From Granulicatella elegans ATCC 700633 (lineage in GTDB: Bacteria > Bacillota > Bacilli > Lactobacillales > Aerococcaceae): a DNA stretch of 64,000 bases. The notes under the pieces are model-generated. The model was not told where the DNA came from, did no database searches, and was given only the letters and a program-made list of their open reading frames with translations. The DNA lies in contig NZ_KI391971.1 of assembly GCF_000162475.2 (NCBI RefSeq), positions 1,571,609-1,635,608 on the forward strand. The letters are read 5' to 3'. Positions within the stretch are counted from its first letter, which is position 1; each line of letters starts with the position of its first letter. Made by a program: the position numbers and the translations under genes. Positions 15,008 to 41,500 of this stretch are shown here, piece after piece.

Positions 15008-15102
15008 CTTGCCGTAGAAAGTTTTAAAGCGGTGGCAATCTCTATAAAGGTAGGTGATGCTTATGAGCATCTATTCAAAATCTATCGAAAGGAGGTTGCA
15101 CT

Positions 15103-15207
15103 TTGTCAGTCTATGAAGCTTTGACATTGGTGTGTTCTTTCGCGACTTTATTAGTTGCATTAGTATCGCTCATTGTCAAACTAGTAGAAATGATAACAAA
15201 AAAATAA
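15103..15207 (+). CDS. Holin-like type I toxin peptide (34 aa, TTG start)
   Basis: The TTG start has AAAGGAGG six bases upstream, a near-ideal site. The product MSVYEALTLVCSFATLLVAL then continues to a KK end: one hydrophobic helix (about residues 5-27) with a short charged tail. This fits the putative holin-like toxin family (Hol_Tox, relatives of TxpA/BsrG). Such peptides damage the membrane when not silenced by antisense RNA. An oppositely oriented promoter and terminator over the 3' end supply the antisense RNA expected for this family. A decayed copy precedes it. Confidence 0.8.
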   Translation: MSVYEALTLVCSFATLLVALVSLIVKLVEMITKK

Positions 15208-17690: not shown

Positions 17691-18068
17691 TTATAAGCCT
17701 AGTTCTTTTTTTAATGCAAACTGCAAAACACTAGAAAAATTAATAGACTTTTCTTCTGATAAATCATTTAACCACTTTGGAATTGTTAATGTTTTCTTAA
17801 TCGATTGTTGATTAGCTTTATCCTTGATTGGTTCTTCCCAAATTTCAATATAAATTACCATTTCATCATCTTTTGCTTTATAAGACAGTGGTTTAGGAAT
17901 TTCGATATTGTTTTTATACATTGAAAAAAGCATTCCTTTTAAAACATCCTTGGCATTGTCTACCACTTCTTCTAAAGTTTCTCCATCTGTAAAGACATTA
18001 TCTAATCCTGGAAAATTAGCATAATATATATGATCTTCTTGAGTTAAAACGCATGGAAAAAATAACAT
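17691..18068 (-). CDS. hicB: HicB-family antitoxin
   Basis: This 125-residue antitoxin has the partly degraded RNase H-like HicB fold (YYANFPGLDNVFTDGETLEE, the usual start) and a C-terminal DNA-binding segment, here TLTIPKWLNDL followed by NFSSVLQFALK, resembling a ribbon-helix-helix. It neutralises HicA and represses the operon. It lies 31 bp downstream of hicA in the usual hicA-hicB order. No lesion is seen. Confidence 0.85.
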   Translation of the reverse strand: MLFFPCVLTQEDHIYYANFPGLDNVFTDGETLEEVVDNAKDVLKGMLFSMYKNNIEIPKPLSYKAKDDEMVIYIEIWEEPIKDKANQQSIKKTLTIPKWLNDLSEEKSINFSSVLQFALKKELGL

Positions 18069-18099
18069 ATCTAAATCTCCTCACTTTATATATACAGGG

Positions 18100-18291
18100 C
18101 TAAAACTTTAGCCCTGTAATTCGTTCTATGTTAGAAACTGTACCTGCCGGAATATCTTTTTTAGTACACTTAACAGGACAACTGATTCCATCTTTTGTAT
18201 AGATTTCGTGAGATCCTGTCGTATGATCTAATATCCATCCGGCTTTAAGTAATATACTTCTAACATGTTTGTAAGGTTTTACTTTTGACAT
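18100..18291 (-). CDS. hicA: HicA-family mRNA interferase toxin
   Basis: The protein has 63 residues from MSKVKPYKHV; a GGGGGAAAA site six bases upstream selects this start over one 17 codons earlier that would begin inside the promoter. The dsRBD-like HicA fold is visible: SILLKAGWILDHTTGSHEIY with the conserved catalytic His in GSHEIY, and a C-terminal KKDIPAGTVSNIERITGL helix. HicA cleaves mRNA and tmRNA. It is co-transcribed with hicB. Confidence 0.87.
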   Translation of the reverse strand: MSKVKPYKHVRSILLKAGWILDHTTGSHEIYTKDGISCPVKCTKKDIPAGTVSNIERITGLKF

Positions 18292-18313
18292 AGTTTTCCC
18301 CCTTACACTCAAT

Positions 18314-18342
18314 ATTATACGTATATTTAATACGTGTGTCAA
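18314..18342 (-). promoter_or_regulatory. hicAB promoter with palindromic operator
   Basis: A perfect TTGACA (18337-18342) and TATAAT (18314-18319) are 17 bp apart. The spacer and -10 contain an inverted repeat with half-sites ACGTATT and TATACGT, the likely HicB operator. Confidence 0.82.
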
Positions 18343-18418: not shown

Positions 18419-19078
18419 CTACTCCACCACAAGCTCACCTTCATCATCTAGTTTAACAAACACGGGATTATATAACTTAGGTTTTTTCGCTAATTTCTCT
18501 AATCTCTCCATATAATTTTGAATAATCTTATCGTGATCTATTTTTGAAACTACGAATTTTTTCTCTTTTACAGAAATAATCTCACTATTTTCAACCAGTT
18601 CACTAGAATATCGATTATACAGCATCGTTATCAGATTGATATCCTCATCATTCAAATCAGCCAAGTCCAACTCCGCTATGTTATATTTATGATTCAAAAT
18701 TTCACTTTCTTTTGCCTTCCAAATATTTAGTTTCTTCATAAAACTAGACCATTCTTCTTCTGTCAGTGTTTGAACGATAAACGCACATCTCTTTGCTCTA
18801 TCTTCATTTACTTTAATGATTTTATCTTCATAGATAGATTTAGAGTTTATATGAAATCTATCACAAATTTTTCCATAGTCCGTCCAAACAGCCCCAAAAA
18901 CTGGTCCTTTTTTTATTCCAATTAGAAAATTTAAATCTGATTCGTCATTTTCTATTTCAGAGAAAAATTCATATAATATCAAAAAAATTTGTAATTTATA
19001 GGGTCTATTGTATAACTTTCTTTCATGTACTTGAAACCAACCACTGAGGGTATATTTTCTATCATCAGAAAACATCAT
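18419..19078 (-). CDS. Panacea/SocA-like protein of unknown function
   Basis: The protein has 219 residues from an ATG ATG pair with AGGAGG nine bases upstream; the frame continues 44 codons further up without a site. The first 75 residues show the pattern RPYKLQIFLILYEFF followed by GIKKGPVFGAVWTDY, which resembles the Panacea/SocA antitoxin domain (LQK-LY and GPV motifs). The rest is a charged helical region. Its neighbours are hicAB and pce. If the domain call is right it may be an antitoxin-like or defence gene; no toxin partner is adjacent. The assignment is tentative. Confidence 0.45.
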   Translation of the reverse strand: MMFSDDRKYTLSGWFQVHERKLYNRPYKLQIFLILYEFFSEIENDESDLNFLIGIKKGPVFGAVWTDYGKICDRFHINSKSIYEDKIIKVNEDRAKRCAFIVQTLTEEEWSSFMKKLNIWKAKESEILNHKYNIAELDLADLNDEDINLITMLYNRYSSELVENSEIISVKEKKFVVSKIDHDKIIQNYMERLEKLAKKPKLYNPVFVKLDDEGELVVE

Positions 19079-19427
19079 AGCTATTATCCTCCTTAAACTT
19101 CCAAAATGACTGTTAATCGTAATATCTATCCTTATTATAAGTCTTACGGGAGAGATTGACAAAAATATTTTGTCAACTGATTTGATAAAGAAGCGTTTTG
19201 CTTCTATCATTTATAGTGTATACAAAAAGGGCCTCATCCCTTATATTAAAAGTGTTCAAACTATTTAAGAGGAGATGAAACCTTATGACTACTATACGCT
19301 ACAAATCAAAGATAAAATATTAAAAAAGGAATTAAGTAACTATCAGTCACTTAATTCCTTCAAAAAATTTATTTAATAGAATTCCTAACAAATATTTTTT
19401 CCCCTGTTAGGAAAGCTCATGATTTGT
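19079..19427. other. Gap between the Panacea-like gene and pce
   Basis: The gap holds a short hairpin near 19209 (AAGGG/CCCTT), an 11-codon ORF with AGGAG at 19284 that I do not interpret, and the pce terminator. An upstream extension of the Panacea-like frame also lies here. Confidence 0.4.
19326..19360 (-). terminator. Terminator of pce
   Basis: Perfect arms AAGGAATTAAGT/ACTTAATTCCTT with an 11-base loop have six Us on the minus-strand side. Confidence 0.8.
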
Positions 19428-21425
19428 CTATCTCGCTCCACCATTCGTTGTAGTTGGATTTAGATTTGTAGTTAAATCCGTATTTGAACTTACTTCTTTT
19501 TCCACAATTGAACTACCTACAGCTGTTTCTGGAGTTCCAGAAGTCGTAGGAGTCACTTCCTCTACTGAATGTTTCGGATTACTTGTTGAATGATTTTCTT
19601 CATTCGATTGTTTTTCTAAAACGGATGACGTATTCAACTCGTGAGTTACAGTTTCTCTACGATTATCACTTTCTGTGTAATGATATCTTTGAGAGCTTTC
19701 AACTGTTGTTCTTGCTTTTTCTGTCTCTTTTTTAACTTTCTTCACTTCTTGAGGAATATCTTTTAGCCATACACCTTTATCATCTACTGTGTATCCATCA
19801 GGTGTTTTTCCACTCTTCAATAATTCCCCATTTGCTTTGAAGTAATACCACTTACCATCAATTTCAGTCCATACTTCTTTTGCTCGCTCACCTGAAGTTC
19901 TGTAATAGTAGTTTTTATACCATCTTGTTAGCATATGCCCATCATTAGCTAGTACGTACTCTTGTTTATCTAGATGTAATTCTCCAGTTTTCATCTTGCC
20001 ATCACCGTCAAGATAATACCAGTTATCTAGATCTTTGACCCAACCTGTTTTCATCTCTCCTGATTCGGTAAAATAATACCAAGCTTTGTCTATCCATTTC
20101 CAACCTTTTTGCATATCGCCATCTTTGGATAAATAATACCATTGACCATTCGAACTAGCCCAACCTGTTTCCATCTGACCATAGCTGTTGAAAAAATACC
20201 ATGAATCATTAATGAACTTCCATTTTATTGCCATTTCTCCAGAATCTTGTAAATAAAACCAACGACTACGCCATTTTTTCCATTTGCTTTCTAACATTGC
20301 TCCATTTCCTTTGAAGAAATAATAACGACCTGCAATCTCACTCCAACCAATCGCATGTTCCCCAGTTGCATATTGATACTTCCAAACATCATCTTCCACA
20401 TACCACTTCGCAGTAAAACTTGGAATTCGAGGATACTGTGTTGAAATATTCTTAAATCCATCCGTACGAATATCAAAAACGGTCGCATCATATACTGCGC
20501 TACTTGCCTTAATCAATTCAGCACCATACGATTTCATTTGATTGATAACATCTGTTGCCAGTTGATTATTCTTCGAAGGATTACTACTTGAAGTTTGTAC
20601 CACAATCGAAGGTTGTAAATTTTGCAGTAAATTAGGTGTATTCGAAAATTCCGCATCAAAATGATGATTAAACTTCATCATATCGACTTTTCCAATGATT
20701 GGACCATAATTATCTTCATTACGATAATCTAAATTGTTCAAATCACCTGCCGTAAAAATTCTCTTCCCATTGACAGTAATCACACTAATGATTGAATTAG
20801 AATTATCATCTACTACTGGTGTTAATTGACCATTTGTATATTTATTTTCATAATTATAGAGTTGAATGTCCATATCTCCTAAAGAAAAATGAGCTTGTTC
20901 TTTTGAAATATCTTGGATGACTGGGATTCCCTTTTGACCCGCAACTTCTAATACCTTGTCATAATTATACTGACTATCCCACAGTCTCTCCTTATCCGTG
21001 ATTCGACTATCACTATAACGCTTCATATACACTTTATTGACATTAAAATTCTCCATCAACTCATCCGCATTCCCAATATGATCTGAATGAGCATGAGTAA
21101 TTAAAATAAAATCTAATGTTTCTACACCCACATTTTTCAAATGACGGATGACACGTTCTGTCATGACATTACGATAATCGGTATTATCACCCTCACGATA
21201 TGGATAACGTTCATCACTTCCATCTGGAAAATCATAATCTTCCCCCGTATCAATCATGGCATAATGCCCATTACTTTCCAGTAAAATAGCATCACTCCCA
21301 AGATTCGTTGGGGAAACATTTATAAAGTGAATCTTGTTTCCATTTCCTTCTTGTGCTTGAACTGGATTCATAAAACTAAGAAATCCAATTGTTGATAACA
21401 TCATCCCTATTTTCCACTTTTTCAT
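19428..21425 (-). CDS. pce: Teichoic-acid phosphorylcholine esterase (Pce/CbpE), choline-binding
   Basis: This 665-residue protein closely resembles pneumococcal Pce (CbpE). A signal peptide (about 1-25, cut after VQA) is followed by a metallo-beta-lactamase-fold esterase with its zinc motif HAHSDH (His111, His113, Asp115, His116), the family strings DTGEDYDFPDGSDERYPYRE and LMKFNHHFD. From about residue 335, around ten choline-binding repeats follow, ending in GKTPDGYTVDDKGVWL, then a Ser/Thr/Glu-rich tail without a sorting signal. It removes phosphorylcholine from teichoic acids and so releases choline-bound proteins. Its presence implies choline-decorated teichoic acid here. Confidence 0.93.
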   Translation of the reverse strand: MKKWKIGMMLSTIGFLSFMNPVQAQEGNGNKIHFINVSPTNLGSDAILLESNGHYAMIDTGEDYDFPDGSDERYPYREGDNTDYRNVMTERVIRHLKNVGVETLDFILITHAHSDHIGNADELMENFNVNKVYMKRYSDSRITDKERLWDSQYNYDKVLEVAGQKGIPVIQDISKEQAHFSLGDMDIQLYNYENKYTNGQLTPVVDDNSNSIISVITVNGKRIFTAGDLNNLDYRNEDNYGPIIGKVDMMKFNHHFDAEFSNTPNLLQNLQPSIVVQTSSSNPSKNNQLATDVINQMKSYGAELIKASSAVYDATVFDIRTDGFKNISTQYPRIPSFTAKWYVEDDVWKYQYATGEHAIGWSEIAGRYYFFKGNGAMLESKWKKWRSRWFYLQDSGEMAIKWKFINDSWYFFNSYGQMETGWASSNGQWYYLSKDGDMQKGWKWIDKAWYYFTESGEMKTGWVKDLDNWYYLDGDGKMKTGELHLDKQEYVLANDGHMLTRWYKNYYYRTSGERAKEVWTEIDGKWYYFKANGELLKSGKTPDGYTVDDKGVWLKDIPQEVKKVKKETEKARTTVESSQRYHYTESDNRRETVTHELNTSSVLEKQSNEENHSTSNPKHSVEEVTPTTSGTPETAVGSSIVEKEVSSNTDLTTNLNPTTTNGGAR

Positions 21426-21454
21426 TGAATAATTACCTCCCTTATTCCTTTTAT

Positions 21455-21483
21455 AGTATAAAACAATACGCTATTACCCTCAA
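21455..21483 (-). promoter_or_regulatory. Promoter of pce
   Basis: TTGAGG (21478-21483) and TATACT (21455-21460) are 17 bp apart, about 30 bp upstream of the ATG. A GGGAGG site follows. Confidence 0.7.
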
Positions 21484-21549
21484 TGAAATTTTTTAGCATA
21501 AAAAAATTCTGTCAGTGATTCATTTGATTCACTCAATGAGTCCAACTAA

Positions 21550-21625
21550 AAAAGGAATTAAGCAAACTGACGCTACTTAATCCCTTCATTAAAATTGTTT
21601 TATCAACCCTATTTGACAAAGAACC
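21550..21625 (-). repeat. IS-end-like repeat, copy 1, containing the abiK terminator
   Basis: A hairpin (AAGGAATTAAG against CTTAATCCCTT) followed by U6 on the minus strand ends the reverse transcriptase gene. It is joined to AACCCTATTTGACAAAGAACC, which resembles the terminal repeat of ISL3-family elements (GGTTCTTTGTCAA type). The same hairpin-plus-end block recurs at 32226-32301. No transposase is attached. Confidence 0.5.
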
Positions 21626-21664
21626 AATATATGGCCAAATCAACGTTTTTCTACCTTACTAGTA

Positions 21665-23470
21665 TTAAAAATATTTAAAATTTTGTTTTTCTCCGCAATC
21701 AACCAGAGAAATATTTCGTGAAAGTAACTCCTCATAAAACTTATTTATGTTCTGTTGATTCCCTTGTCTAAATATATATTTTGAATTCAATTCTGATTTA
21801 TAGCCACGTTTTTTACTTATTGGAAAGTTATTATTTTTATGAAATTTTCTAACTTCAGAGTGCTTAATGATATCATTTTGAATTAAATAATAAATAAAAT
21901 ATCTGAAGAACCAAAACTTTCCAGAAAATCTAGACCTATTTTTAAAAAGTCTATTTGATTCTGCTAGTAATTCATTAATTTTATGCAATAAATCTTTTAA
22001 ACTTAATTTCCGTTTAATATAAATAACTACTAATAAACAAAGTGAGAAATCATCTACTCTATTATCAATCAAACTTAAAATATCTTTTTTTCTAAAAACA
22101 CTACTTGTATTTATGTCGAATTGAGTTATATATAACAAAATCTGATAAAATTCTTGACTGAAATTATTCTTTTTTGAGTAAAGTATTTTTTTCTTTAAAC
22201 TTTCTTGATTTTCTTTAAAATACTTTTGTACTACTTTTTTTGCTTTAGTTCTTAACTTACTGTTTGTAAATAAATTTTCAAATAAATCCATAAACTTATT
22301 AGTTAGTCCAGGACTTTTTATCGAGACATCTAATATTTTTTCTAGCAATGAGTACAGAGTTCTAGGTTCTTCAAACAAAAACAAATCATCTATCTCTTTT
22401 TCGGTAAAATTTCCTTTGTAAATAATATTTCTTAATAAACCTGAAAAAATAATTTTTAAAGCACCTTTATTCCCTATACTTTCCTCAGTTATACACAAAT
22501 CAATATAATCATAAATCAGGTTACGTTGTTTTTTTAAATCTATATTAGTAAAATTATGACTATCAAAAAAATTGAATATTACAGATTTACTTCGTTGATT
22601 ATTTTGTGGAAAATCTTCGATTTCTGTTTTTTCGGTGTTTAAATAAAGATTGTATTCTCTACACAATAGATTTACTTGTTCCATAAATTCTTCTTTTTCA
22701 TTTTCCAATGAATATACAAAAGTAAAATCATCTACATATCGAGCATATTTAAATCCTTTACTTTCTAAAGCTTTATCAAAATAACACATAAACAATTCAG
22801 CTATAATCCTTGAAGGCACATTTCCTGTCGGAATTCCGTGGGTTTCTCCATATTGACATGCCTGAATTAGAGAATCTAAATTATTTGCGAATCCTTTACC
22901 TCTATTCGACTTTGCATTTTCTTTTCCCATAATCATCCAGGGTATACTATGAGTATATAGCGTATGATAAAAATTTGCTAAGTCTAAATGAAGTTGTTTA
23001 TTGCCCGACTGTAATAATCTTGACTTTATTCTTTCAATAGTTTCATATTTATACTTTGGAGAATCAAAGTACTTTGAAATAGATAATTTATTATCGAAAA
23101 ATTCATTAACAAACTTATCCTTATTATCACACATGAATTTTACTAAAACAGTATAACTATATAAGTTTGGTAGTTTATACTGCCTACGTATCAAACCTTT
23201 CTTTGGAATATTAAAGTATATAGGTTCTGTCCAGGTTTTGTCCATAAAATCAAATGTTCCTTGCGATTTTGTAGCCATAATCTGTTCTAAAATTTCTATT
23301 GAATGTATAGAAAAAACATCTAAATTAAACATTTTATAAAATGTTTCTGTATTAAAGTATTCATCATTGTTACTGTTAGTATCTTTATTTTTTCTATATG
23401 AAAAATAACCATATTTTATTAAATATTCTGGAGTAAATAATTCATTATACATATTCTCCAATTCGCTCAT
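21665..23470 (-). CDS. abiK: AbiK-type abortive-infection reverse transcriptase
   Basis: The protein has 601 residues from ATG 23470; a GTG two codons earlier is less likely. The RT fold is clear: LHLDLANFYHTLYTHSIPWM (motif A region), ETHGIPTGN (motif B) and catalytic YVDD near residue 250 in YARYVDDFTF. Length and order match lactococcal AbiK (about 600 residues), whose RT domain is followed by an about 300-residue helical C-terminal half. AbiK makes untemplated protein-primed DNA and stops phage growth. The gene is far lower in G+C than the core genes and sits among mobile-element debris, consistent with transfer. It ends in its own terminator. Confidence 0.82.
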   Translation of the reverse strand: MSELENMYNELFTPEYLIKYGYFSYRKNKDTNSNNDEYFNTETFYKMFNLDVFSIHSIEILEQIMATKSQGTFDFMDKTWTEPIYFNIPKKGLIRRQYKLPNLYSYTVLVKFMCDNKDKFVNEFFDNKLSISKYFDSPKYKYETIERIKSRLLQSGNKQLHLDLANFYHTLYTHSIPWMIMGKENAKSNRGKGFANNLDSLIQACQYGETHGIPTGNVPSRIIAELFMCYFDKALESKGFKYARYVDDFTFVYSLENEKEEFMEQVNLLCREYNLYLNTEKTEIEDFPQNNQRSKSVIFNFFDSHNFTNIDLKKQRNLIYDYIDLCITEESIGNKGALKIIFSGLLRNIIYKGNFTEKEIDDLFLFEEPRTLYSLLEKILDVSIKSPGLTNKFMDLFENLFTNSKLRTKAKKVVQKYFKENQESLKKKILYSKKNNFSQEFYQILLYITQFDINTSSVFRKKDILSLIDNRVDDFSLCLLVVIYIKRKLSLKDLLHKINELLAESNRLFKNRSRFSGKFWFFRYFIYYLIQNDIIKHSEVRKFHKNNNFPISKKRGYKSELNSKYIFRQGNQQNINKFYEELLSRNISLVDCGEKQNFKYF

Positions 23471-24117
23471 TAACACACACCTACCTAAATATATTTGTAT
23501 AGCAGTAAAAAAATTGATTGCAAAATGAAATATAATCTTTTTTACCTTTCATTTTGGGTAGATTATTAAGTTTTTAGCAATATCATCTGTAATTACTAGA
23601 TAGTTAATTTTTCCACCGTTTTTAATATATATTCTTTATTAACGCTATATTCAGATCTAGCATTTAAGAATAGAAAAACATTATACCTTCCTTTTATAGT
23701 TTAAAAAATCTATTATTTTTTAAATTCTTATTCTAAATCAAAAGAAATATCTAAAAAACTTTTCATTTTTTAATAACAACCTCTCAACCTCAATAAATCA
23801 ACTTATCTATATTCTAATGAAAAAAATTGTATACAACAAGTAAAAAAGTAAGCGTTTTTAAAAAGATTACCATTTTAATATAAATAACATATATCACTTA
23901 ATGTTGCAATTTACGGAGAATATAATCCATAAAATTTGATAGCCTCTTACATTAAATTTTAGTATTATATTTATATCATTATCAATAGGAGAAAATATTA
24001 TAAATTTTTTTCTATTGGTGATAATGATTTTTCTTATAGGACCAATGTTATTATCTTTGGATTATCTCTCTATTTGTTGCAGTGTTACAATTATGCATAT
24101 CATTCAAGGAGGATTCT
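23471..24117. other. AbiK leader region with decayed ORF and promoter
   Basis: On the minus strand, between the promoter module (23811-23860) and abiK, two broken frames (for example YNVFLFLNARSEYSVNKEYI, then after a shift NYLVITDDIAKNLIIYPK) suggest a degraded small gene at about 23570-23700. Beyond the module the DNA is AT-rich; on the plus strand a short hydrophobic frame (FLLVIMIFLIGPMLLSL) overlaps the small ORF at 24118. Confidence 0.4.
23811..23860 (-). promoter_or_regulatory. Promoter module A: cre-like box plus TTGTTG-17-TAGAAT
   Basis: On the minus strand, a cre-like 16-mer (23845-23860, TAAAAACGCTTACTTT) precedes TTGTTG (23834-23839) and TAGAAT (23811-23816), spaced 17 bp. It would drive the degraded small ORF and abiK. 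It is one of three copies with the same layout. Confidence 0.6.
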
Positions 24118-24213
24118 ATGACAGTATTTAATGAGGAATTGGTAAATGCCGTCTACAGAGTGTCCAGTATTGATACGATAATAACAGCTTTTGAATATCA
24201 TCTCATCGGGTAG
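24118..24213 (+). CDS. Small ORF (31 aa) with strong ribosome site
   Basis: AAGGAGGATTCT stands right in front of the ATG. The product MTVFNEELVNAVYRVSSIDT plus 11 residues has no signal or membrane segment. A hairpin with T-run (24250-24272) follows. It lies just upstream of a relaxase remnant, so it may be a leftover small gene of a mobilisable element. I do not recognise it, and it may not be expressed. Confidence 0.35.
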   Translation: MTVFNEELVNAVYRVSSIDTIITAFEYHLIG

Positions 24214-24249
24214 CGCCCAGCAGCTTCGAATCCTGCATACTCTTCCAAA

Positions 24250-24272
24250 AAAGAGATCTTAATGGTCTCTTT
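24250..24272 (+). terminator. Terminator-like hairpin after the 31-residue ORF
   Basis: AAAGAGATC/GGTCTCTTT pair with one wobble and one mismatch at the loop end; Ts follow on the plus strand. Confidence 0.4.
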
Positions 24273-24384
24273 GTTATTTCGCTTGTTCAATATAAATGCT
24301 AATATATAAATATACATTTTTAAATTCCCACTTTTGTACATTTTTAGATTGACGTTTATACGAGATTTCTACAATTATGGAGCA

Positions 24385-24735
24385 AGTTCATACCATGAAA
24401 AAGTATCAAGCTTATTACAAGGAAAATAAGGCAGATTCATCGGACAAGGCCTTTTTGTGGGAGAACATAAGGATGAAATCACACGCTACGAAACGACTCT
24501 TGTAAAACTAAAAAAATCCTATTCAAAATGTACTGTACCCCAAAAGTTAGACATGAAAATCTAACTTTTGGGGGTCACTTCAAAAGCTGCCAAATTCAAA
24601 TGATATTTTAGATAAATTGCAAGAAAAAAGAATACCCTAATACAAGAGTATTCTTCTACCAAACCTACTATGGACAATCTTTATCAACTACGAAAGAACT
24701 ACGGAATTTATATGGGTAAGGATATGAAGAAATAA
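24385..24735 (+). pseudogene. Relaxase (mobilisation protein) C-terminal remnant, interrupted
   Basis: Across shifting frames the DNA reads YQAYYKENKADSSDKAFLWE, then HKDEITRYETTLVKLKKSYS, then KLPNSNDILDKLQEKR, then EYSSTKPTMDNLYQLRKNYG and IYMGKDMKK, the usual ending of MobA/Rlx-type relaxases of conjugative or mobilisable elements. At least two frameshifts break it, and an IS-end palindrome is inserted at 24531-24579. The N-terminal catalytic part is gone. Confidence 0.6.
24531..24579. mobile_element. Minimal IS remnant: two facing IS3-type ends
   Basis: TGTACCCCAAAAGTTAGA and its near-perfect inverse TCTAACTTTTGGGGGTCA stand only about seven bases apart inside the relaxase remnant. The end sequence resembles IS3-family (IS150 group) terminal repeats. 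An IS3-like element probably inserted and then lost its whole interior. The flanks share TTCAAAA, a possible target duplication. Confidence 0.55.
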
Positions 24736-24749
24736 AGCTTCATCTCTAT

Positions 24750-26441
24750 TTACATCAATTGAGCACTTAAAACATTTTCTAAAATATCTTCATATTCTTT
24801 GAAAGTTTCAGAATTAAGCAACTGATATTTATCATTTTTTAGCTCAATAATTTTTATTTCCCCTTCAAATATAAACTTCGTTCTTTCAAATCCAATTGAT
24901 GAAAAAATGAGTTGCGTATATTTGGATGAATTCTCCAATATATATTCAATTAAAGCTTGTTCTTTATAATAATCCATCTCTGCATTCTTAGGACTGTCCA
25001 ATACCATTGGTAACTTCAAAGATTTTTTATTGAAACATACTTTAAGATTATTAAGAATGAAATACCATATAACCGTTGAAATAGGTTTATTACTTCCACT
25101 AGCACAAAACACACGATTAATCGCTTTATATTGTGACTCCTCCAATTCATTCAATCCGAATCTCAACACTTGGCTATCTACCATCTCATAATACTTGTTA
25201 TTAATATCAGCTTTTATTTCAGATACTTTTTTTAGTTCTTCTTCGATATTTTCTATTCTATCTTTAAGTTCTTCTTGTAATTGCAATTCACTAAACAATT
25301 CCAGATTCAAGCTATTATAAAGCTCATTTAATCCAATATAACTGGTATAATTTTTGATTTCTTCCTGAGCAGAATCAATATTTTTCTTATATGATTCCAA
25401 TCTATTTGAAAACTCTCTATAACTACTCTCAATTTTCGAAATCACTTTTGAAATCTGTTCTATATCTTCGTAGATGCTGTCACTTATATATATTGAAGTC
25501 TCTATTGAATTATATCTTTTGCTCCTTAGATCAGTGGTATCATTCAAAAATGAATGACATTGAGGACAGATATCCGTCTCTAAAATAAACTTTACTTCTT
25601 TTTCTTTACTATTTTTAAATCTCTCAATTTGGTTCAATGCAATCTCTAGCTCATATTTCTCATTTCTTAAATTAGTAAGTTTATATCTAAACTCATTCAT
25701 AGAATGCAATATATCATTATATTCCTTTGATCTAATAGAAAGTTCTCTTTCGAGCTCTTCTAAATTTTCAGGAACAACTACATTCTCTAATAAATTAGAT
25801 ACTTTTCCCTTCATTTCATCCGATTTTTTATATGATTCTTTAGAGTCATTAATGCGTTCAAATAAATTTTGTTTAATTTTAACACGCTCAAAATAGCTCT
25901 TATCATATATTCCAAGTTGGGAGTAGATCACATCTGGTTTGAAATTTCGATATTGTCCTAAACTTTTAAAAGAATTGAAATTGGTTCCATCATAATAGTC
26001 TTGATCAAGAAAATTCATCACATATGTATACGCTGGTGGGGCAATCTCTAACTTCTCAGTATTTCTATTAGGCAAAAATATTTCAAAAGACCAAATTTCA
26101 CCTAAAAACTCTGATAATTCTGTCCTAGATGATGTTTGAAATAATATCTGAATAAGATCATTAAATACCTTAAATAACTTTCTATGTCTATATATAAAAT
26201 ATTTTTTATTATCAACAAAAAACTCTAAAAGATATACTTTGTCTTCATTTTTCCATTTTTTATCGAAGTGGGCATCAGCTCCCATAACATGATATAAACT
26301 ACGCAACAATACCGATTTTCCTCTATCTGTTCCATCAATACTGCTAGAAGTAACAATATTTACTCCTTTTTCAAAGCTTGTAACAAAAGCTTTTTTAGTT
26401 AAAATATCAAAAATATATATTTTTTTAAAAATTACATTCAT
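24750..26441 (-). CDS. lmuB: SMC/Rad50-like ATPase of a Lamassu-like defence system (LmuB-like)
   Basis: This 563-residue protein has split ATPase ends: an N-terminal P-loop-like GTDRGKSVLLRSL (about 37-49) and a C-terminal Walker B LPMVLDSP (about 478-485). Between them a long coiled coil (about 200-430) carries a zinc-hook-like CPQC near residue 291. This is the SMC/Rad50 layout of LmuB (also DUF2326-type) proteins. Its ATG overlaps the stop of the DUF4297 gene (TAATG), so the two are translationally coupled. Lamassu SMC proteins are thought to sense foreign DNA ends and release the effector. It is intact; the LmuB name is inferred from the gene pair. Confidence 0.7.
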   Translation of the reverse strand: MNVIFKKIYIFDILTKKAFVTSFEKGVNIVTSSSIDGTDRGKSVLLRSLYHVMGADAHFDKKWKNEDKVYLLEFFVDNKKYFIYRHRKLFKVFNDLIQILFQTSSRTELSEFLGEIWSFEIFLPNRNTEKLEIAPPAYTYVMNFLDQDYYDGTNFNSFKSLGQYRNFKPDVIYSQLGIYDKSYFERVKIKQNLFERINDSKESYKKSDEMKGKVSNLLENVVVPENLEELERELSIRSKEYNDILHSMNEFRYKLTNLRNEKYELEIALNQIERFKNSKEKEVKFILETDICPQCHSFLNDTTDLRSKRYNSIETSIYISDSIYEDIEQISKVISKIESSYREFSNRLESYKKNIDSAQEEIKNYTSYIGLNELYNSLNLELFSELQLQEELKDRIENIEEELKKVSEIKADINNKYYEMVDSQVLRFGLNELEESQYKAINRVFCASGSNKPISTVIWYFILNNLKVCFNKKSLKLPMVLDSPKNAEMDYYKEQALIEYILENSSKYTQLIFSSIGFERTKFIFEGEIKIIELKNDKYQLLNSETFKEYEDILENVLSAQLM

Positions 26442-27466
26442 TAAATTTCACCTCCCTCTATGTATATATAAAAGACTAATAAGTAAAATACATTCTTCAT
26501 AATTTGTGTATATTCCATCTGAAATTCTCCATCAAATATTGGGCTTAAAACACAAAAAAGTTCATCTTCATTTTTAATCTTATCTATATTTCCTTCAATA
26601 TATTTAAAAACTGATGCCTTTAATACATTCAAATCATAACTATGATCAATTTCTATCAAATTAGTTAAAGCTTGATTATACATTCTTCTTTCGGCTGGAT
26701 ATAAAGTTTTAATATAATTTTTAGCTTGCTCAATACCGGTTATAGATTTTTTCCTATGAGATTCAAGCATTTTATTAAACTCATCTTTAGAAATCCCCTT
26801 CAACTCTAGAACATCATTATAATTAGTTATTGCCATCTCATAAGAAGCTTTTTTCTGGGCTGTCTCAGATACTAATCTATATAAAGCGTTCGGATTATTA
26901 GGTTCTTCATTTTTAATTTCTTGAAAAGATTCAATTAACTTTCCAATCAAAGCGTAGTGAGGATTTATTAAATCTATACCTTCACAAATATAAAAAACAT
27001 TGTCAAGAACAACATCTGACAAATTCAGTTCTTCTTTCAATTTATCTTGAATAAAATCTATTACTGTTTTATCCAACTCCCCTAAACATATCTCTTTTCT
27101 TAGTTCTTCATTCCTAGCAATCTTCAAATATTTATTACAAACTACAGCCAACTTAACGTTTTGATTAGGATTGTATAGGGCATATAATGTTCCCAAAATA
27201 GATTTACTATTTTCTTTTCGATTAGTCAGTGTTTTAAAGCTGTGATTCCCACTATTTTTTGTTTTTACCTGATAAAAATCTAGACCATTTTCATAATGTA
27301 ACTCGATGTCACATTTGAAATCAAACACGACAGTATAGTCATCGTACTGCTTATATGCATCAATTAATTTGCTAATACCCCACAATAATTCAACTCTAAA
27401 TCTATTCTTAGTTCTGCTACCTGCTAAGTCTAATGGCAAATTCATATAATAGTCCGAATATCCCAT
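26441..27466 (-). CDS. lmuA: DUF4297 (Cap4-like) nuclease effector of a Lamassu-like system (LmuA-like)
   Basis: The 341-residue protein begins with a DUF4297/Cap4-type PD-(D/E)XK nuclease: LDLAGSRTKNRFRVELLWGI, then the acidic residues of VVFDFKCDIEL and the QVKTK signature at about residues 65-69. Residues from about 200 to the end form a helical region that may contact the partner or stand in for LmuC, as no separate lmuC is seen. An AGGAGAGGT site precedes the ATG. Such nucleases degrade DNA upon phage sensing. The alternative is an uncharacterised DUF4297/ATPase pair outside Lamassu proper. Confidence 0.7.
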   Translation of the reverse strand: MGYSDYYMNLPLDLAGSRTKNRFRVELLWGISKLIDAYKQYDDYTVVFDFKCDIELHYENGLDFYQVKTKNSGNHSFKTLTNRKENSKSILGTLYALYNPNQNVKLAVVCNKYLKIARNEELRKEICLGELDKTVIDFIQDKLKEELNLSDVVLDNVFYICEGIDLINPHYALIGKLIESFQEIKNEEPNNPNALYRLVSETAQKKASYEMAITNYNDVLELKGISKDEFNKMLESHRKKSITGIEQAKNYIKTLYPAERRMYNQALTNLIEIDHSYDLNVLKASVFKYIEGNIDKIKNEDELFCVLSPIFDGEFQMEYTQIMKNVFYLLVFYIYIEGGEI

Positions 27467-27557: not shown

Positions 27558-27766
27558 CTAATCTTCTTCTACACACTCCACAATTTCCTCAATATTGCAA
27601 TTCAAAGCATTGCAAATTCTAAGCAAAACATCCGTAGTTACATTTTTCCCCTCTTCATTTTGTAAAATGTACTTTTACCCACTTTTGCCTTTTCCATCAA
27701 TTCGTTATTTGTCATATCTAAATCAATGAGTTTTTTGAATAATCTTTTATAACTAAAAGCCCTCGT
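27558..27766 (-). pseudogene. XRE-family helix-turn-helix regulator, broken
   Basis: The frame reads RAFSYKRLFKKLIDLDMTNN, then ELMEKAKVGKSTFYKM, and after a frameshift near 27670 continues EEGKNVTTDVLLRICNALNC and IEEIVECVEED. This is a small XRE (Cro/CI type) repressor of about 68 residues. The expected ATG is ACG (27764-27766), behind an AGAGGA site and a TATAAT box. With both lesions it is most likely dead; it is perhaps left from a conjugative element. Confidence 0.65.
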
Positions 27767-27876
27767 TTTTATCCTCTGTTTAAGAAAACTATACTTAGCA
27801 TATTATATCGCAAAATATACTTTTTTCATAAATATATTCTCTTTAATCGAACTCATATATCTAAGAAACACAAACA

Positions 27877-29011
27877 TTTGTGACACAAACCAGTGTCAAT
27901 ACAACTTGTGGGACAATTGGCTTGTACACAAAATATTTTAACGTCTGGATTTGTCAAGGGCTTTAGAGCGAAGCGTCCCTTTACAAAGGAAGAAGGAGTT
28001 GAACTATAATACATTAAGCTGATTGTAACAAATGTTGCTGTACTATTTCATTTGGAGATTTAAATTTTAATACACATCTAGCTACATTATTCCCTCTACT
28101 AATATATCTTATATGAGCTTTAACTAAACTATCTAAACTCTTAAATACTCGATTATACAATCTTCTTCCATCTTCTCTATGACTACGTTCTACTTTCCCA
28201 TTTTGCCATGGAGAGTAGGATCTAGTTTTTATATGTTTAATGCCTTTTTCTTATAATTTTTGTTCGAAAATCATTTTTTTAGTTGTCACTTCTGGATCAT
28301 TTGTAAATTCACGTCCATTATCTGTTTGAACAGTTTTAATGCTAAATCCAAAATGCTCTTCTAAATGATCTAAAAATGCCGCTGTATGTGTAACGCTTTT
28401 CTCATCTACAATTTTACATACTCGTTTTCTACTAAATTCATCTATCGCTGTTATTTGATAATATTTAACACCCTTACTATCCCATCCTATACAGTACTGC
28501 GGAACATATTTAATGTCGATTTGTACTTTTTCTCCTGGATAAGTAGTTGGTATTGGTGTTCATTTACTCTTAGGATCATTCTTTTTTCTTTCTTCTCAGT
28601 TAATTGAAGTTTTTTAATCATTTTTTTCATAGCACCGTATGAACGTTTATACCCTCTTCTTTGACATTGGACATAAATCTCTGCTAATCCGTCTCTGCTA
28701 TAACGTTTGTATATTTTATGTATAAGTTCTAATTCGTGGGTTTTATGTTCTTTAGGATGATGTAACGGTCTTCGACTTTTTGGGAGCAATGATTGTGCAG
28801 TGCCATCATATTGACTTCTCCATCGAGCAATTTGTTGTCTAATTGTATGGTATTTCCTTGCTGCTTTAGCGTTATTATCATGTTTTATTGCATATTCTAC
28901 TGCACGCTGTCTTAATTTGATTTCTACTGTTATAATAAATTTCATAAGAGAACCTCTTTCCTGATTTTTGAGCAAATTCAGTATAACATTGGTTCTCTTT
29001 TTTATCACAAA
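27877..29011 (-). mobile_element. Decayed IS481/IS3-like insertion sequence (about 1.1 kb)
   Basis: Imperfect terminal inverted repeats, both starting TTTGTGA, bound the element (27877-27901 and about 28984-29011). It holds one degraded transposase gene on the minus strand. Its right end lies 21 bp beyond the stop codon of the MBL-fold gene, so that gene was not cut. Confidence 0.65.
28014..28945 (-). pseudogene. IS481-like DDE transposase, degraded
   Basis: The start MKFIITVEIKL has an AAGAGG site. An N-terminal helix-turn-helix (HDNNAKAARKYHTIRQQIAR) is followed by an rve integrase core with the catalytic Asp of VQIDIKYV, the Asp of VQTDNGREF and the Glu of NGKVERSH. At least one frameshift near 28590, a TGA at the Trp position before TPIPTTYPGE, and a TAA at 28251-28253 break it. 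The product would have been about 310 residues. Confidence 0.78.
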
Positions 29012-29032
29012 TACATAGTACGCTAGCATCCA

Positions 29033-30166
29033 TTAAAAAAATAAATACTCTACAAATTGTTCTTCGTTTGAACAACATAAAATTCTATTATCCTTTATAA
29101 TATCTGAAATAACTTCAGAATTTGGATGACCATATGGATTATTTAAACCAGCTGAATTAAAAAAAAATTTAGCATTTGGGCAGTTATTTAAAATATTACT
29201 ATTCCAATTATTCATTGCACCATGATGTGGTGTTAAAAAGAATTTTATATTTTTCATTTCATTTCTATAATATTTTAAAAAGTGGGTAAACCTAGAACTT
29301 TCATTTAATGAAATATCACCGACAAGCATACTTCCACTTATATAATTAAGATGATAATTATTCTCATATATACAATATTTGCAATATTTGCAATATTTAT
29401 CACTATCATAACAAATTACAACATCTTGAGATAAAAACGTATGACTTATATGTGAATGAAAAACACATAAACTTGATTGATTTTGTTTCGAAGTATCGCT
29501 ACTCATGCAGAACTTATTATATACAGCCCTCAACTCATTTTTAATATCAGAATTGTTAATTTGACTTAATAAATCACTTAAACCACGACAACTATGTTTA
29601 GCTATTATATCTTCTATTTCTTTTTCAATACTATCTAATACTTTTTCATTTTTTAAATAAGTATTGTAAAATTTAAACTTCCATATGTTTTTATATTTTA
29701 CAATCGGCATTCTCATTTTAGTTAGTTTAATTCCACCTATTTTTAATTTTTCATCAAGGTTATAGTTTTCTCTATTCTCTTCACTAAAATCATCTCTAAC
29801 TTCTAAATTCGAATCTACAAATATTATTTCACTTTCCATTTTTAATAAATCAAAATCATAAATATATAGATAAATAACTAACAAAAGATAAGTACTAATT
29901 CCTCCATAATACGGAATATAAATTTGTGATATTTTCTCTATTTTTGATAAAAGTATAGGTAATCCATTAATATGATCCTCATCAAAATGAGAAATAATTA
30001 ACATGTCTAACTCTTCAATACCATACTCATTTAAATATTTATCAATAGACTCTTTGATATAAGTTTTTTTCCCACCACAATCATATACAAAATTAAATTC
30101 ATTATTGATCGTTCCTGTGTAAAATAATCCTTGTCCAACTGACCATAATTTAAATCTTGAATACAT
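29033..30166 (-). CDS. MBL-fold metallohydrolase, ComEC-like, orphan in the island
   Basis: This 377-residue protein has a metallo-beta-lactamase fold: VYDCGG, then metal motif SHFDEDHING (about 76-85; Asp replaces the usual second His), a late FFLTPHHGAMNNW and the NPYGHPNSEV end typical of ComEC-type beta-lactamase domains. There is no signal peptide or membrane channel. GGAGG precedes the ATG. MBL-fold hydrolases of this type occur in several phage-defence loci (for example Avs type 1), but no STAND ATPase or other partner is adjacent, so a role in defence is only suggested by location. Substrate unknown. Confidence 0.65.
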   Translation of the reverse strand: MYSRFKLWSVGQGLFYTGTINNEFNFVYDCGGKKTYIKESIDKYLNEYGIEELDMLIISHFDEDHINGLPILLSKIEKISQIYIPYYGGISTYLLLVIYLYIYDFDLLKMESEIIFVDSNLEVRDDFSEENRENYNLDEKLKIGGIKLTKMRMPIVKYKNIWKFKFYNTYLKNEKVLDSIEKEIEDIIAKHSCRGLSDLLSQINNSDIKNELRAVYNKFCMSSDTSKQNQSSLCVFHSHISHTFLSQDVVICYDSDKYCKYCKYCIYENNYHLNYISGSMLVGDISLNESSRFTHFLKYYRNEMKNIKFFLTPHHGAMNNWNSNILNNCPNAKFFFNSAGLNNPYGHPNSEVISDIIKDNRILCCSNEEQFVEYLFF

Positions 30167-30328
30167 ACATTTTCTCCTCCATACTCTTAATTAATTTAAA
30201 TGCAGCAAGATATTTCTATTTCCTTATACATAATTCTTCTTTCCCTCAATTATTTTAGTCTAACTAACCAATATGAGTTCTCTTTCATTTAACGCTAAAC
30301 TCTCATCCACAATATATTACTCAACTAT

Positions 30329-30377
30329 ATTTTAACGAAAAAAATTCTAGATAACAACCGAAAAGTAAGCGTTTTAA
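30329..30377 (-). promoter_or_regulatory. Promoter module B: cre-like box plus TTGTTA-17-TAAAAT
   Basis: On the minus strand: cre-like TTAAAACGCTTACTTT (30362-30377), TTGTTA (30352-30357), TAAAAT (30329-30334), spacer 17 bp. It points at the MBL-fold gene, whose ATG is about 165 bp further on. Confidence 0.62.
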
Positions 30378-30561: not shown

Positions 30562-30589
30562 AAAAAAGAGAGCTTGCGCTCTCTTTTTT
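30562..30589 (-). terminator. Terminator of the membrane-protein pseudogene
   Basis: AAAAAAGAGAGC/GCTCTCTTTTTT with a four-base loop, overlapping the stop codon of the upstream frame. It is U-rich on both strands. Confidence 0.8.
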
Positions 30590-31854
30590 AAAAATATATC
30601 CATTCTCCTTTATCATTTCTAGACCAATGTAATTTTAAAAAAATATACTGATTAGTTAGATTAGTATTTAAAACAATAGTGTTATTATTTGTATTAATTT
30701 CACCTACTGTAATATTGTTAAATTTCTTAAAAGTAAGACTAGCATTATCGTAGATATATTCTTCGTTTTCAAAAATAATTTTATCCTTATCAAAAATTAA
30801 TTGGTTCTCATAATTAATACAATTATTGGAGTCTACTTTATAATATACCCCTCTATAATCATTTTGCATTAAGTTTTTTATTCCATAGTTTGAACATATA
30901 TATACTACAAAGCAGAATATCGGTATTATTAAAGGTTTTATTGGCACCTTTAAATTTAATTTATGATTTAATATTTTATTCTCATCAATTTTAAATAAAT
31001 ATGTGAAAGCTTTATAAATGATAAAATCTTTAAAAGATACAAACAAAATAATAGTTATTGTTAGAAAAATTACATTTAAAATAAAACGGAAAAATGTGAA
31101 TGCAGAAAAAAATCAAATTCCAAAGGCGAGTAGTGACTATAATGATATTTATTAATCAAATAAGCAAATTCATTACTTTTTGATATTTTTTCCGATAAAT
31201 TTAAGCAAAAATAGAAAAATACTAGAAATATAAATAAATTTAATCTTATCTTCATTAAATTTACTTTTATTTTATTTTTAGGTATTTTCTTTTGTATTTT
31301 CTGTGGAAGTATTAAAATTAAATTTTCATTTATTAATTGTGGAAGCGCGGTTACAAGAAGTAATGATAGGAAAGACCAATTTAAGAATGATGATTCAATT
31401 CCAATCCCAGAAAGTAATAAAAAAATAATGAAAGAAGAAACATAAATTAAAAATGCTGCTATTTTAAATAGACTATACAATACACGAGAAAAAACAACCA
31501 CAATGTTACATATAGTAAAACTTTATCAATGGAATTTTTTAACAACTCATTTTCAATGTTATTTATAATAGGTTGATAAAAAATATATAAGCCAACATAT
31601 ACAAATGGATAAACAAAAAAATTCAAATTCAACTTAGTTTTTTCATTATTTAATATCTTTTGAACCTATTTTCCTGAGTCACCTAACTCTGACTTCAAAT
31701 CATCAATATTAAAAAAACAAAAAGCAACTAGAATATAAAATGTACACATGATAAATAGCATAATTATTTTTTCATTGTAAATCTTAAATTGATAATATAG
31801 GATTATTAGTGATAAGATTTTTAAAGCTATTGTTACTATAAAATTATACTTCAT
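30588..31854 (-). pseudogene. Membrane-protein gene broken by an amber codon and frameshifts
   Basis: Three adjacent short hydrophobic frames (31666-31854, 31076-31501, 30588-31046) lack ribosome sites for the second and third and join into one about 420-residue multi-pass protein if lesions are repaired. The first frame ends in TAG (31666-31668), but the same frame continues FVYPFVYVGLYIFYQPII. A shift near 31510 joins the second frame, and another near 31095 joins the third through FRFILNVIFLTITIILFVSF. The last about 90 residues are hydrophilic and beta-rich. It is unlikely to be functional; family unknown. Confidence 0.6.
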
Positions 31855-31980
31855 TGGTTTTTTTTACAAAGAAATTTTTTACATATTTTCTCCTTATATC
31901 TAATTTTCTTATTCTAACTTTTAAAATAGTTAGAAAATCTTTTTACTATTTTAAACAATAATCTCTCATAACTTATCTAT

Positions 31981-32029
31981 ATTCTAACGGAAAGTATTCT
32001 ATATCACAAGGAAAAAGTAAGCGTTTTAA
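31981..32029 (-). promoter_or_regulatory. Promoter module C: cre-like box plus TTGTGA-17-TAGAAT
   Basis: On the minus strand: cre-like TTAAAACGCTTACTTT (32014-32029), TTGTGA (32004-32009), TAGAAT (31981-31986), spacer 17 bp. It points at the broken membrane-protein gene. Confidence 0.62.
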
Positions 32030-32170: not shown

Positions 32171-32225
32171 CTAAGTTATCAATTGATCCCATTAATAAAT
32201 CCATTTTCTTGAATAATCCATACAA

Positions 32226-32301
32226 AAAAGGAATTAAGCAAACTGAAGCTGATGAATTCCTTTACCAAAATTGTTTCATCAACCCTATTTGACAAAGAGC
32301 C
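32226..32301 (-). repeat. IS-end-like repeat, copy 2
   Basis: It has the same order as 21550-21625: hairpin AAGGAATT/AATTCCTT, an ACCAAAATTGTTTCATC spacer, then AACCCTATTTGACAAAGAGCC. The two copies match at most positions. It is probably a leftover end of an ISL3-like element. Confidence 0.5.
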
Positions 32302-32306
32302 AAAAA

Positions 32307-38558: not shown

Positions 38559-41500
38559 TTATTTTTCATCTTTTTTGTTTCTTTTTGGAGCTACTAGTCC
38601 TAATCCTGCAAGGATTGCACTTGCTGCTGCACCTAAGAATGCTGATTCTTGACCAGTTCCTGTATTTGGTAATTCTTGACGAGTTACTTTTTCTTGTTTA
38701 GCTGGTGTTGTTTCAACTGCTTTTGGTGCTGGAGCTACAACTTTACGGTAGATGTGACGAACGTTTCCGTTAGCATCTTTTTCAGTTCTTACTAATTCAT
38801 ATTCTACGATATCTTTAGCAGGAACTTCACCGTTTTCGTTAGGAATAATCACGTTTCCATTTTCATCCACAAATGTAGTCATCACTTTTGCTTCTGGAGT
38901 CACTTTACGGTAAACATTACGAACATTACCATTCGTATCTTTTTCAGTACGAACGATTTCGTAACCTTTTAATTCTTTACCTGGATGTGATCCATTTTCA
39001 TTTGGAATGATTAACTCTCCATTTTCGTCTACATAAGTTGTTAATACTTTTTCTGTAGTTGGTGTTGAAGTTGTTTTACCAACTTTTCTATAAATATGTC
39101 TTACTGTTCCATCTGGGTCAGTTACAGTTTCAACATATTCATATTCAGGAATATCTAATACAGGAGATAACATATCATATTCAAATCCTGGGATTACGTT
39201 TCCTTCTGTATCTCGGATAATTCCTTTTGGTTTTTCAACTGATGGAGTTGGTGTTGGAGTTGTTACTTTTTCGTATACGTGTTCGATATCCCCATTTCGA
39301 AGAGTCTTAGTTTCTACGAATCTGTATCCTGGAATATCTTTCTTATCTGTTGTTCCTTCTTCTACTGGATATCCTGGAATAACATTTCCTTCTTTATCTT
39401 TGAAGAATGTTTGAACTGGTGCGTAAGTGTGAACTGTATCTCCTTTTCCACTAGTTGTTGTACTTACTAGTTTGTAACCTGGAATGTTCTTAGGTTCTTT
39501 TGTTCCTTCTTCAATTTCAGTCCCTGGAATTGGGTGACCAGCTTGATCTACGTATCTTGTCGTTACTTTTTCGTAAACATACTCTGTATCTCCATTTGGA
39601 AGTTTCTTAGTTTCTACTACGTTATATCCTGGAATATTCTTAGGATCTTTTGTTCCTTCTTCTGTTTCTGTTCCTGGAATTGGGTTTCCATTTCTATCTA
39701 CGTGTTTAGTTGTTACTGGTTCGTAGATGTGTTTAGTGTTACCTTTTTCATCCGTTTCAGTCTTAACAAGTTTGTATCCTGAGATTTTTTCTGATGGTTT
39801 TTTACCATCTTTAGATGGGATAATTTCAGTTTCTTTACCATCTTTTCCTACGACTACAAATTTAGTGTCAGGACGTACTGTTGGTGTGTAAGAAGCTTTG
39901 ATTGTCTTACCGTTTTTATCTTTACGTACAACTTTTACTGGAGTAGCTTTTCCTACGAAGTTTGGTTCTGGAGTGAACGTTACTTTACCGTTCGCATCGA
40001 TTGTATAAGTTCCTTCTCCTGGAATTGTCTTAGTAGTTGTTCCATCTTCAAATGTTGGCGCTACTGTAGTGTCCACATCACCTTTGAATACTGGAGTATT
40101 CGATTGAGGTTGTCCTTTAGCACCTTCTGATACTACGTTTTCAGTAGTTGTTTTACCTAATACTGTTGGAGTGTAAGTAGCTGTTACTGGTGTTCCATTT
40201 TTATCTACACGTTTCACAGTTACACCTTTAGCTTTTCCTACGAAGTCTGGTTCTGGAGTGAATGTTACTTTACCGTTTGCATCGATTGTGTAAGTTCCTT
40301 CTCCTGGTACTTTCTTCTCAGTTGTTCCATCTTCAAATGTTGGCGCTACTTTGTCATCAATCTCTACTGTTACAGTTTTACCATTTACTTTAGTAATTCC
40401 TGCTGTAAATACTGGTGTTTCTGATTGAGGTTGTCCTTTTTCACCGATTGATGTTACATCTTTAGAACTTGGAGTTACTGGTAATACTACTGGAGTATAT
40501 TTAGCTGTTACTGGTGTTCCGTTTTTGTCCACACGTTTCACGGTTACTCCGTTAGCTTTTCCAGTGAAGGATTTTTCAGGAGTAAATGTTACAGTTCCGT
40601 CTGGGGCTACTGTGTAAGTTCCTTCTCCTGGTACTACTTTTTCAGTTGAACCATCTTCAAATGTAGCTGGTTTAGTATCATCAAGTTCTACAGTTTTTTC
40701 TACACCGTTCACTGTTGTTTTACCTGCTTCAAAGGCTGGTTTACCTTTTTGAGTTGCACCTTGTACATCAGTAGTTACTTCATCATCTGAAGTTGGAGTT
40801 ACTGGCTTAACAGTTGGTGTGTATTTTGCTGTTACTTCTGTACCATTTTTATCCACACGTTTAACAGTTACACCACTAGCTTTACCTGTGAATTGTGGTT
40901 CTGGAGTGAATGTTACTACACCATTTTCATCGATAGTGTAAGTCCCTTCTCCCGGCACTTTCTTTTCTGTTGTTCCATCATCAAATGTTGGTTTAACAGT
41001 TTCATCGATTTCTACAGTTACTTCTTGACCATTAACTGTTGTTTTACCAGCTGTAAATACTGGAGTTCCAGTTTGTTTAGCGCCTTGTACATCTTCAGAA
41101 ACTACGTCATCTGATGTTGGAGTAACTGCTTTAACAGTTGGTGTGTATTTTGCTGTAGCTGGAGTTCCGTTTTTATCTTTACGTTGAACTTCAACTCCTT
41201 GTGCCTTACCTGTGAATTTTGGTTCTGGTTTGAATGTTACTTCACCCGTTTCTGGGTTGATTGTGTAAGTTCCTTCTCCTGGTACTTCTACTGAAGTTTC
41301 ATCAGTTGGTTCTCCTGTTTCTGGATTGATTAATTTCGCTGGTACAGTTAAATCGATAGGAGTCTTAGTATTTCCTTCAGTAAATGTTGGAGTTCCACTT
41401 TGTTCTTGACCTTGTGCACCTTGAGAACTTGCTTCTTTAGCAGTTGGTGTAACAGGCGTGATATTTGGAGTGTAAGTTGTTGTTACAGCTGTTCCATTTG

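Follow-up and report, generated by a model that had tools for sequence, protein, structure and literature searches.

An intact AbiK-type reverse transcriptase gene on the chromosome of Granulicatella elegans

Does an open reading frame on the chromosome of Granulicatella elegans ATCC 700633 encode a genuine AbiK, a protein-primed polymerase that works without a template, or does it encode a reverse transcriptase (RT) of another class, or a relic stranded among broken mobile DNA? The frame lies in the window, the stretch of 64,000 nt that was analyzed (contig NZ_KI391971.1, positions 1,571,609 to 1,635,608), and occupies window positions 23470-21665 of the minus strand. It is uninterrupted over 601 codons and specifies a protein of 601 aa. 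The ATG start codon (23470-23468) is preceded by a ribosome-binding-like stretch, AGGTAGGTGTG; the last coding base is 21668, and the stop codon ends at 21665. An alternative, in-frame GTG is present upstream at 23476 and would give a protein of 603 aa, with two extra residues. The translation contains the HSIPWM, HGIPTGN, and YVDD motifs, and both these motifs and the length of 601 residues agree with the preliminary description of this DNA. An RT-like domain (about residues 1-290) is followed by a C-terminal helical domain, with the border between the two transferred from the Lactococcus protein. Pfam RVT_1 matches at 40.6 bits (cut-off 29.6). The gene is the sole match within its own genome, a single contig of 1,743,361 bases, and its GC content of 25%, compared with 34% for the window, fits acquired DNA.

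The family of the protein is indicated by profile searches. In PADLOC, two AbiK models rank at the top with E-values of 1.8e-194 and 2.8e-194 (646 bits, residues 2-592), while the best class other than AbiK is Drt6, at 3.3e-58. The margin of the AbiK models over the other PADLOC classes thus exceeds 130 orders of magnitude, and their matches run from end to end. A phmmer search against the PDB returns AbiK entries 7r06 and 7z0z as its top two rows (E about 1e-148, residues 3-600); the remaining ten sequences, UG15 and other RTs, have E-values of 4e-23 or weaker and span at most 265 residues. Alignment with AbiK of the Lactococcus lactis plasmid pSRQ800 (PDB 7r06 and 7r07; the Y44F variant is 7z0z) is colinear over the full length, with 44% identity over 606 columns and 387/606 positives (64%). 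In contrast, the RT core alone aligns with E. coli Abi-P2 (26% over 216 columns). Together with the open frame, these matches bear out the claim that an intact AbiK-type RT is encoded at 21665-23470.

An RT of another class (a retron, group II intron, Abi-P2, DRT3b, DRT4, or DRT6 protein) that resembles AbiK only in its RT core would also produce matches to several RT models, and weaker matches to Drt6, Drt4, Drt3b, AbiP2, group II intron, and retron models are indeed present. In NCBIfam, whose six matches include no AbiK model, Drt4, Drt3b, Drt3a, group II intron, retron, and Drt5 all fall far under their cut-offs. Within the best 25 of 46 PADLOC families, 15 of the 23 rows for other classes stop by residue 360 and eight extend beyond it, so the C-terminal half is not wholly unlike that of other classes. 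Nevertheless, the full length aligns with AbiK, and this alignment runs to residue 600. The C-terminal half, whose helical fold is predicted from the sequence, is accordingly kept to its last residues, which excludes the loss of this half that the preliminary description had raised as grounds for doubt. In Lactococcus AbiK the last 46 residues are needed for activity (PMC9508834).

A maximum-likelihood tree of 21 rows (14 AbiK, two Drt6, three AbiP2, and two Drt3b) gives the same answer. The AbiK label was assigned by PADLOC for the window protein, L012, L014, and L015 and by similarity for the other ten; among the AbiK rows, those of Streptococcus anginosus, Enterococcus pseudoavium, and genome G085 are incomplete. 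Rows left out were L001 (the window's own), L010 (a viral RT, only distantly related), L013 (which seems to duplicate the contig of L009, an E. pseudoavium record), L055 (a short RT fragment), and L059 (a fragment at a record end). All 14 AbiK rows lie on one side of a branch with support of 100/99, with the S. anginosus AbiK as the sister of the window protein (100/100). Thus, the phylogeny proposed as a check groups the window protein with AbiK in a comparison with AbiP2, Drt6, and Drt3b, with AbiA and DRT4 sequences left out. The long-branched Drt3b and Drt6 rows were included throughout; long-branch warnings attach to Drt6, Drt3b, and one AbiP2 row, and the relations among the non-AbiK classes are unreadable from this tree. 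The suggested alternative placement with group II introns or DRT3 is excluded, since scores for the group II intron, Drt3a, and Drt3b models are far below those for AbiK and the tree sets the protein apart from Drt3b, Drt6, and AbiP2. With Abi-P2, DRT3b, and DRT6 the window protein has an RT core in common, and they occupy separate branches. The other-class reading is refuted for Drt6, AbiP2, and Drt3b by PADLOC and the tree, while for AbiA and DRT4 it is profile scores alone that speak against it; taken as a whole, it is scarcely credible. The window protein is an ordinary member of the known AbiK family.

Membership in the family is matched by the residues through which AbiK works. In the Lactococcus enzyme, which is active only when oligomerized and works without a template, DNA synthesis starts on Tyr44 and catalysis depends on Asp163, Asp247, and Asp248 (PMC9508834). 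The window counterpart of Tyr44 is Tyr38 (codon 23357..23359, minus strand), in a shorter priming loop, and the catalytic aspartates carry the same residue numbers in both proteins: Asp163 is encoded at 22982..22984, and the YVDD codons at 22727..22738 (both minus strand) specify Tyr245, which stacks on DNA, Val246, and the catalytic Asp247 and Asp248 (positions by alignment, roles from PMC9508834). In the 21-row alignment, the column of the priming tyrosine holds Tyr in 14/14 AbiK rows and a gap in 7/7 rows of other classes; in Abi-P2 and DRT3b, the priming tyrosines lie elsewhere (PMC9508834 and excerpts of PMC13174585). Contacts with DNA in Lactococcus AbiK are made by Asp141, Tyr142, residue 145, Tyr245, Lys295, Phe299, and Asn346 (PMC9508834). 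Five of these seven are identical in the window protein (Tyr142, Tyr245, Lys295, Phe299, and Asn348, which corresponds to Asn346), and the exceptions are D141K and T145I. Alanine substitutions at these two positions, D141A and T145A, which differ from the changes seen here, had moderate, non-significant effects in the Lactococcus enzyme (PMC9508834). At the trimer interface, Thr151 is replaced by Arg151, while the Thr369 contact is kept as Thr371; the sole change tested there, the bulky double substitution T151W/T369W, abolished activity (PMC9508834). Five further AbiK rows (S. anginosus, E. pseudoavium, G085, G183, and G407) likewise have Lys or Arg at residue 151, and T151R is thus not peculiar to the window protein. 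An AlphaFold2 model built from four sequences had a mean pLDDT of 49.8, too poor for the interface to be read.

The nearest relative found is the AbiK of S. anginosus J4206 (L007), which is 71% identical over 436 aligned codons and is chromosomal, like the window gene. Across these codons, the NG86 method gives a dN of 0.21 and a dS of 2.64; because dS is saturated and the S. anginosus copy is interrupted, the ratio is rough and its direction alone is safe. In that direction, dN lies far below dS, which indicates that the protein sequence has been conserved. The interruption is one in-frame stop, which splits the S. anginosus frame into 436 and 134 aa (L007 5998-7308 and 7357-7761), whereas the window frame is intact. 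A stop in the closest relative is one reason to consider that the window gene might be intact yet silent, or a relic starting to decay in an island of broken mobile DNA. Its 601 unbroken codons, the retention of the functional residues, and the excess of dS over dN argue otherwise. The S. anginosus gene stands among what are presumably purine genes, named from their translations.

Whether abiK is expressed bears on the same alternative. In front of the gene is a promoter-like repeat of 62 nt (23798..23859, minus strand), in which TTGTTG (23839-23834) and TAGAAT (23816-23811) can be picked out by eye, 17 nt apart. Behind it is an 87-nt repeat (21541..21627, minus strand) containing a hairpin that resembles an intrinsic terminator (21587-21551); a second copy, 85% identical, is present at 32217-32303, where it follows a choline-binding protein gene as the first copy follows abiK. 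The gene is probably transcribed alone, from the promoter-like repeat to the hairpin. However, the first hexamer is poor, with 3/6 consensus bases, and the number of sites in a generic promoter scan of 21400-24800 is close to expectation (25 vs 24.4), with the TTGTTG/TAGAAT pair absent from the matches. These observations would fit a silent gene, while the repetition of the promoter-like module and the terminator-like hairpin point to a transcribed one.

The "shared promoter module" of the preliminary description is real as a repeat, with three copies on the minus strand at 23798-23859, 30316-30377, and 31968-32029, located 5' of abiK, of a gene for an MBL-fold protein, and of small membrane genes, respectively. 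By eye, the other two copies read TTGTTA-17-TAAAAT and TTGTGA-17-TAGAAT, and all three have a common AAACGCTTACTTTT box in front of the promoter. These are the only good copies genome-wide, they all lie inside the island, and they look like local duplications. When 76 genomes of the family were searched with a 191-nt stretch around 31968-32029, one match was obtained outside this genome (52 nt, 77%, E 6e-4); it falls mostly outside the 62-nt repeat and belongs to a genome of another genus. The module has no match at the S. anginosus J4206 abiK locus, and the best match in 14 other AbiK loci (43 nt, E 0.003) lies away from the RT gene.

The repeat could mean that abiK, the MBL-fold gene (29033-30166), and the membrane genes (30588-31854) are defense cassettes switched together through a duplicated promoter module, with an island-wide regulator acting on the AAACGCTTACTTTT box. 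If true, the island would hold a coordinated defense regulon instead of a chance cluster; we regard this as quite unlikely. The MBL-fold gene (minus strand), possibly another defense gene, weakly matches profiles of ComEC and Avs1a and, in PADLOC, an LmuA model (9e-16) and RTasMBL (5e-10). That AbiK and the MBL-fold protein work as a pair, an idea prompted by the common module, was considered and set aside: no such neighbor is listed for annotated AbiK plasmid loci, in which flanks of 2.5-5 kb with incomplete gene tables were covered. As a regulator, CcpA was also considered. The motif WGWAARCGYTWWMA, which we take to be the cre consensus for CcpA, is matched exactly in two of the three modules and with one mismatch in the abiK copy; allowing up to one mismatch, it occurs 11 times in the window compared with 5.9 expected, a count reached in 5/100 shuffles. 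Exact matches in the genome are unenriched (8 vs 13 for a backwards control), so that interpreting the AAACGCTTACTTTT box as a cre site is a weak lead. CcpA control of abortive infection of phage does not figure as a topic in the titles and opening parts of abstracts that were searched. The repeat is in itself a small, testable side observation.

The long leader that separates the start codon from the promoter-like site (about 330 nt, 23804-23471) raises another question: might the RT be templated by an RNA encoded nearby? The Class 2 DRTs studied so far use cis-encoded noncoding RNAs (ncRNAs), whereas Class 1 defense RTs, AbiK among them, are described as template-independent (excerpts of PMC13174585). 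DRT3b is also placed in Class 1, as a protein-primed, untemplated hexamer (excerpts of PMC13174585). The leader would be the candidate RNA, but its folding is barely above that of shuffled sequences (z -1.26, with 11/100 as good), and there is no Rfam match in 21400-24750 up to an E-value of 0.1. Among 14 AbiK loci, the best match to the leader is 41 nt long (E 0.002) and lies several kb away from the RT gene. In an all-versus-all comparison of flanks (upstream, 14 loci, at most 330 nt; downstream, 13 loci, at most 300 nt), the best E-values between the window and other AbiK loci are 0.17 upstream and 0.038 downstream, and the strong matches among those listed join close relatives (for example, L002/L003, L005/L008, and L009/L011). 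In S. anginosus, 5 nt separate the RT frame from the ORF in front of it, leaving no room there for such an RNA. Thus, no ncRNA beside the RT gene, of the kind used by Class 2 DRTs, is common to the window locus and the other AbiK lineages compared. Given also the template-free activity of the Lactococcus enzyme (PMC9508834), an RNA partner for the window AbiK is unlikely, and a Class 2-like, RNA-templated mode of action is highly improbable.

The surroundings of the gene combine another phage-defense system with broken mobile DNA. Upstream, two open frames on the minus strand (24750-27466) encode a Lamassu pair: LmuA with a Cap4 nuclease domain (26441-27466; PADLOC 2e-145, Pfam 5e-53) and LmuB (24750-26441; PADLOC 8e-214). 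The pair is preceded by a regulator like HTH_26 (27558-27802) that is split over two frames, and an IS481-like transposase lies in pieces at 28014-29029 (minus strand), with its rve core at 28251-28556. In the approximately 1.3 kb between Lamassu and abiK, no other frame exceeds 62 aa. A 50-aa fragment there (24353-24502, plus strand) contains 30 aa similar to a Streptococcus agalactiae relaxase (63%, E 7e-3), which lends weak support to the "relaxase debris" reported at this place; the fragment has no Pfam match up to an E-value of 1. Downstream are a choline-binding protein with an MBL fold (19428-21425, minus strand), which matches the pneumococcal phosphorylcholine esterase CbpE/Pce (2bib, E 4e-197), and a HicAB-like pair (17691-18342), in which HicA is above and HicB below the Pfam cut-off. 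Farther away, an Rfam match to the Listeria sRNA rli28 is present at 15014-15173 (plus strand; 61.8 bits, cut-off 45), and three very large ORFs follow one another on the minus strand at 38559-47228 (2889 aa), 48757-57291 (2844 aa), and 57702-63998 (at least 2082 aa). The completeness of the genome, one contig, is 90.33%, compared with 98-99% in six relatives from the genus, and assembly frameshifts could account for some of the split genes nearby.

The fragmented IS481-like element, the weak relaxase remnant, and the frame-split HTH_26 regulator are the kind of company that a relic might keep. Set beside the integrity of the frame and its conserved residues, they leave a silent or decaying gene unlikely. 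The window AbiK is probably functional, judging from its sequence.

The gene neighborhood was also compared with those of other abiK loci. The window abiK is chromosomal and adjoins Lamassu, while that of pSRQ800 adjoins a restriction subunit gene. Lactococcal-type loci contain a site-specific integrase in 4/4 cases and restriction subunit S in 3/4, and staphylococcal abiK plasmids have an Fst toxin as a neighbor. No annotated neighbor is common to the lactococcal-type, staphylococcal-plasmid, S. anginosus, and window loci, as expected of a one-gene system. Within the genus, 19-20 kb beside an MreB-like gene in five relatives was compared with 17 window proteins (E 1e-8). In the closest relative locus (G043; MreB-like, 97%), the region holds only a 71-residue piece like the 18419-19210 protein, together with what appears from its translation to be tex. 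At the other four loci, this region yields MreB-like genes only. AbiK, the one island gene sought genome-wide in the genus, is absent from the six other genomes; the rest of the island could sit elsewhere there.

The occurrence of AbiK was also surveyed beyond the genus. At an E-value of 1e-20 or better, 1/76 genomes of the family matches, namely this one. At 1e-30 or better, matches are found in 4/395 genomes sampled from the order and 4/398 sampled from the class, each count including this genome, and G085 appears in both; the G085 match ends early (472 aa), and that of G154 is cut by the end of its contig. Named-species genomes were scanned with two peptide patterns, which reach only fairly close relatives; this gave three loci, one each in S. 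anginosus, in E. pseudoavium (where the contig ends), and in a Staphylococcus. Of 72,556 records in the plasmid collection, 215 match, 66 of them over 80% or more of the query; Staphylococcus accounts for 37 of the 40 best matches listed. The preliminary description set the gene against described AbiK proteins that are mostly plasmid-borne in Lactococcus, which makes it sound unusual; given the plasmid distribution, this contrast is out of date. Phage-borne AbiK was not found in the phage collection (seven records, 20-21% coverage) or in a scan of viral contigs (one distant match, 74 residues, 27%). An AbiK from Granulicatella is not reported in the titles and opening parts of abstracts searched, nor in one survey searched for the name.

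Taken together, the open frame, the end-to-end family matches, and the conserved residues make it very probable that this Lactobacillales chromosome carries a genuine abiK, which would work as a single-gene, protein-primed, template-independent polymerase. By analogy with the lactococcal enzyme, its product would form trimers and hexamers and use Tyr38 as the primer for DNA synthesis, lengthening single-stranded DNA with neither a template nor an RNA partner. On infection, AbiK may then block phage DNA replication or recombination, the known targets being phage single-strand annealing proteins, and the infected cell would fail to release phage. DNA polymerization, oligomer formation, and abortive infection are thus predicted for the window protein from its lactococcal counterpart.

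The window protein and its S. anginosus relative represent a lineage of AbiK, full-length in the window, on a branch distinct from the lactococcal and staphylococcal ones. What is known of the family is unchanged by it. However, the lineage keeps the priming tyrosine yet varies at Thr151, and it may therefore be useful for testing which residues AbiK needs.
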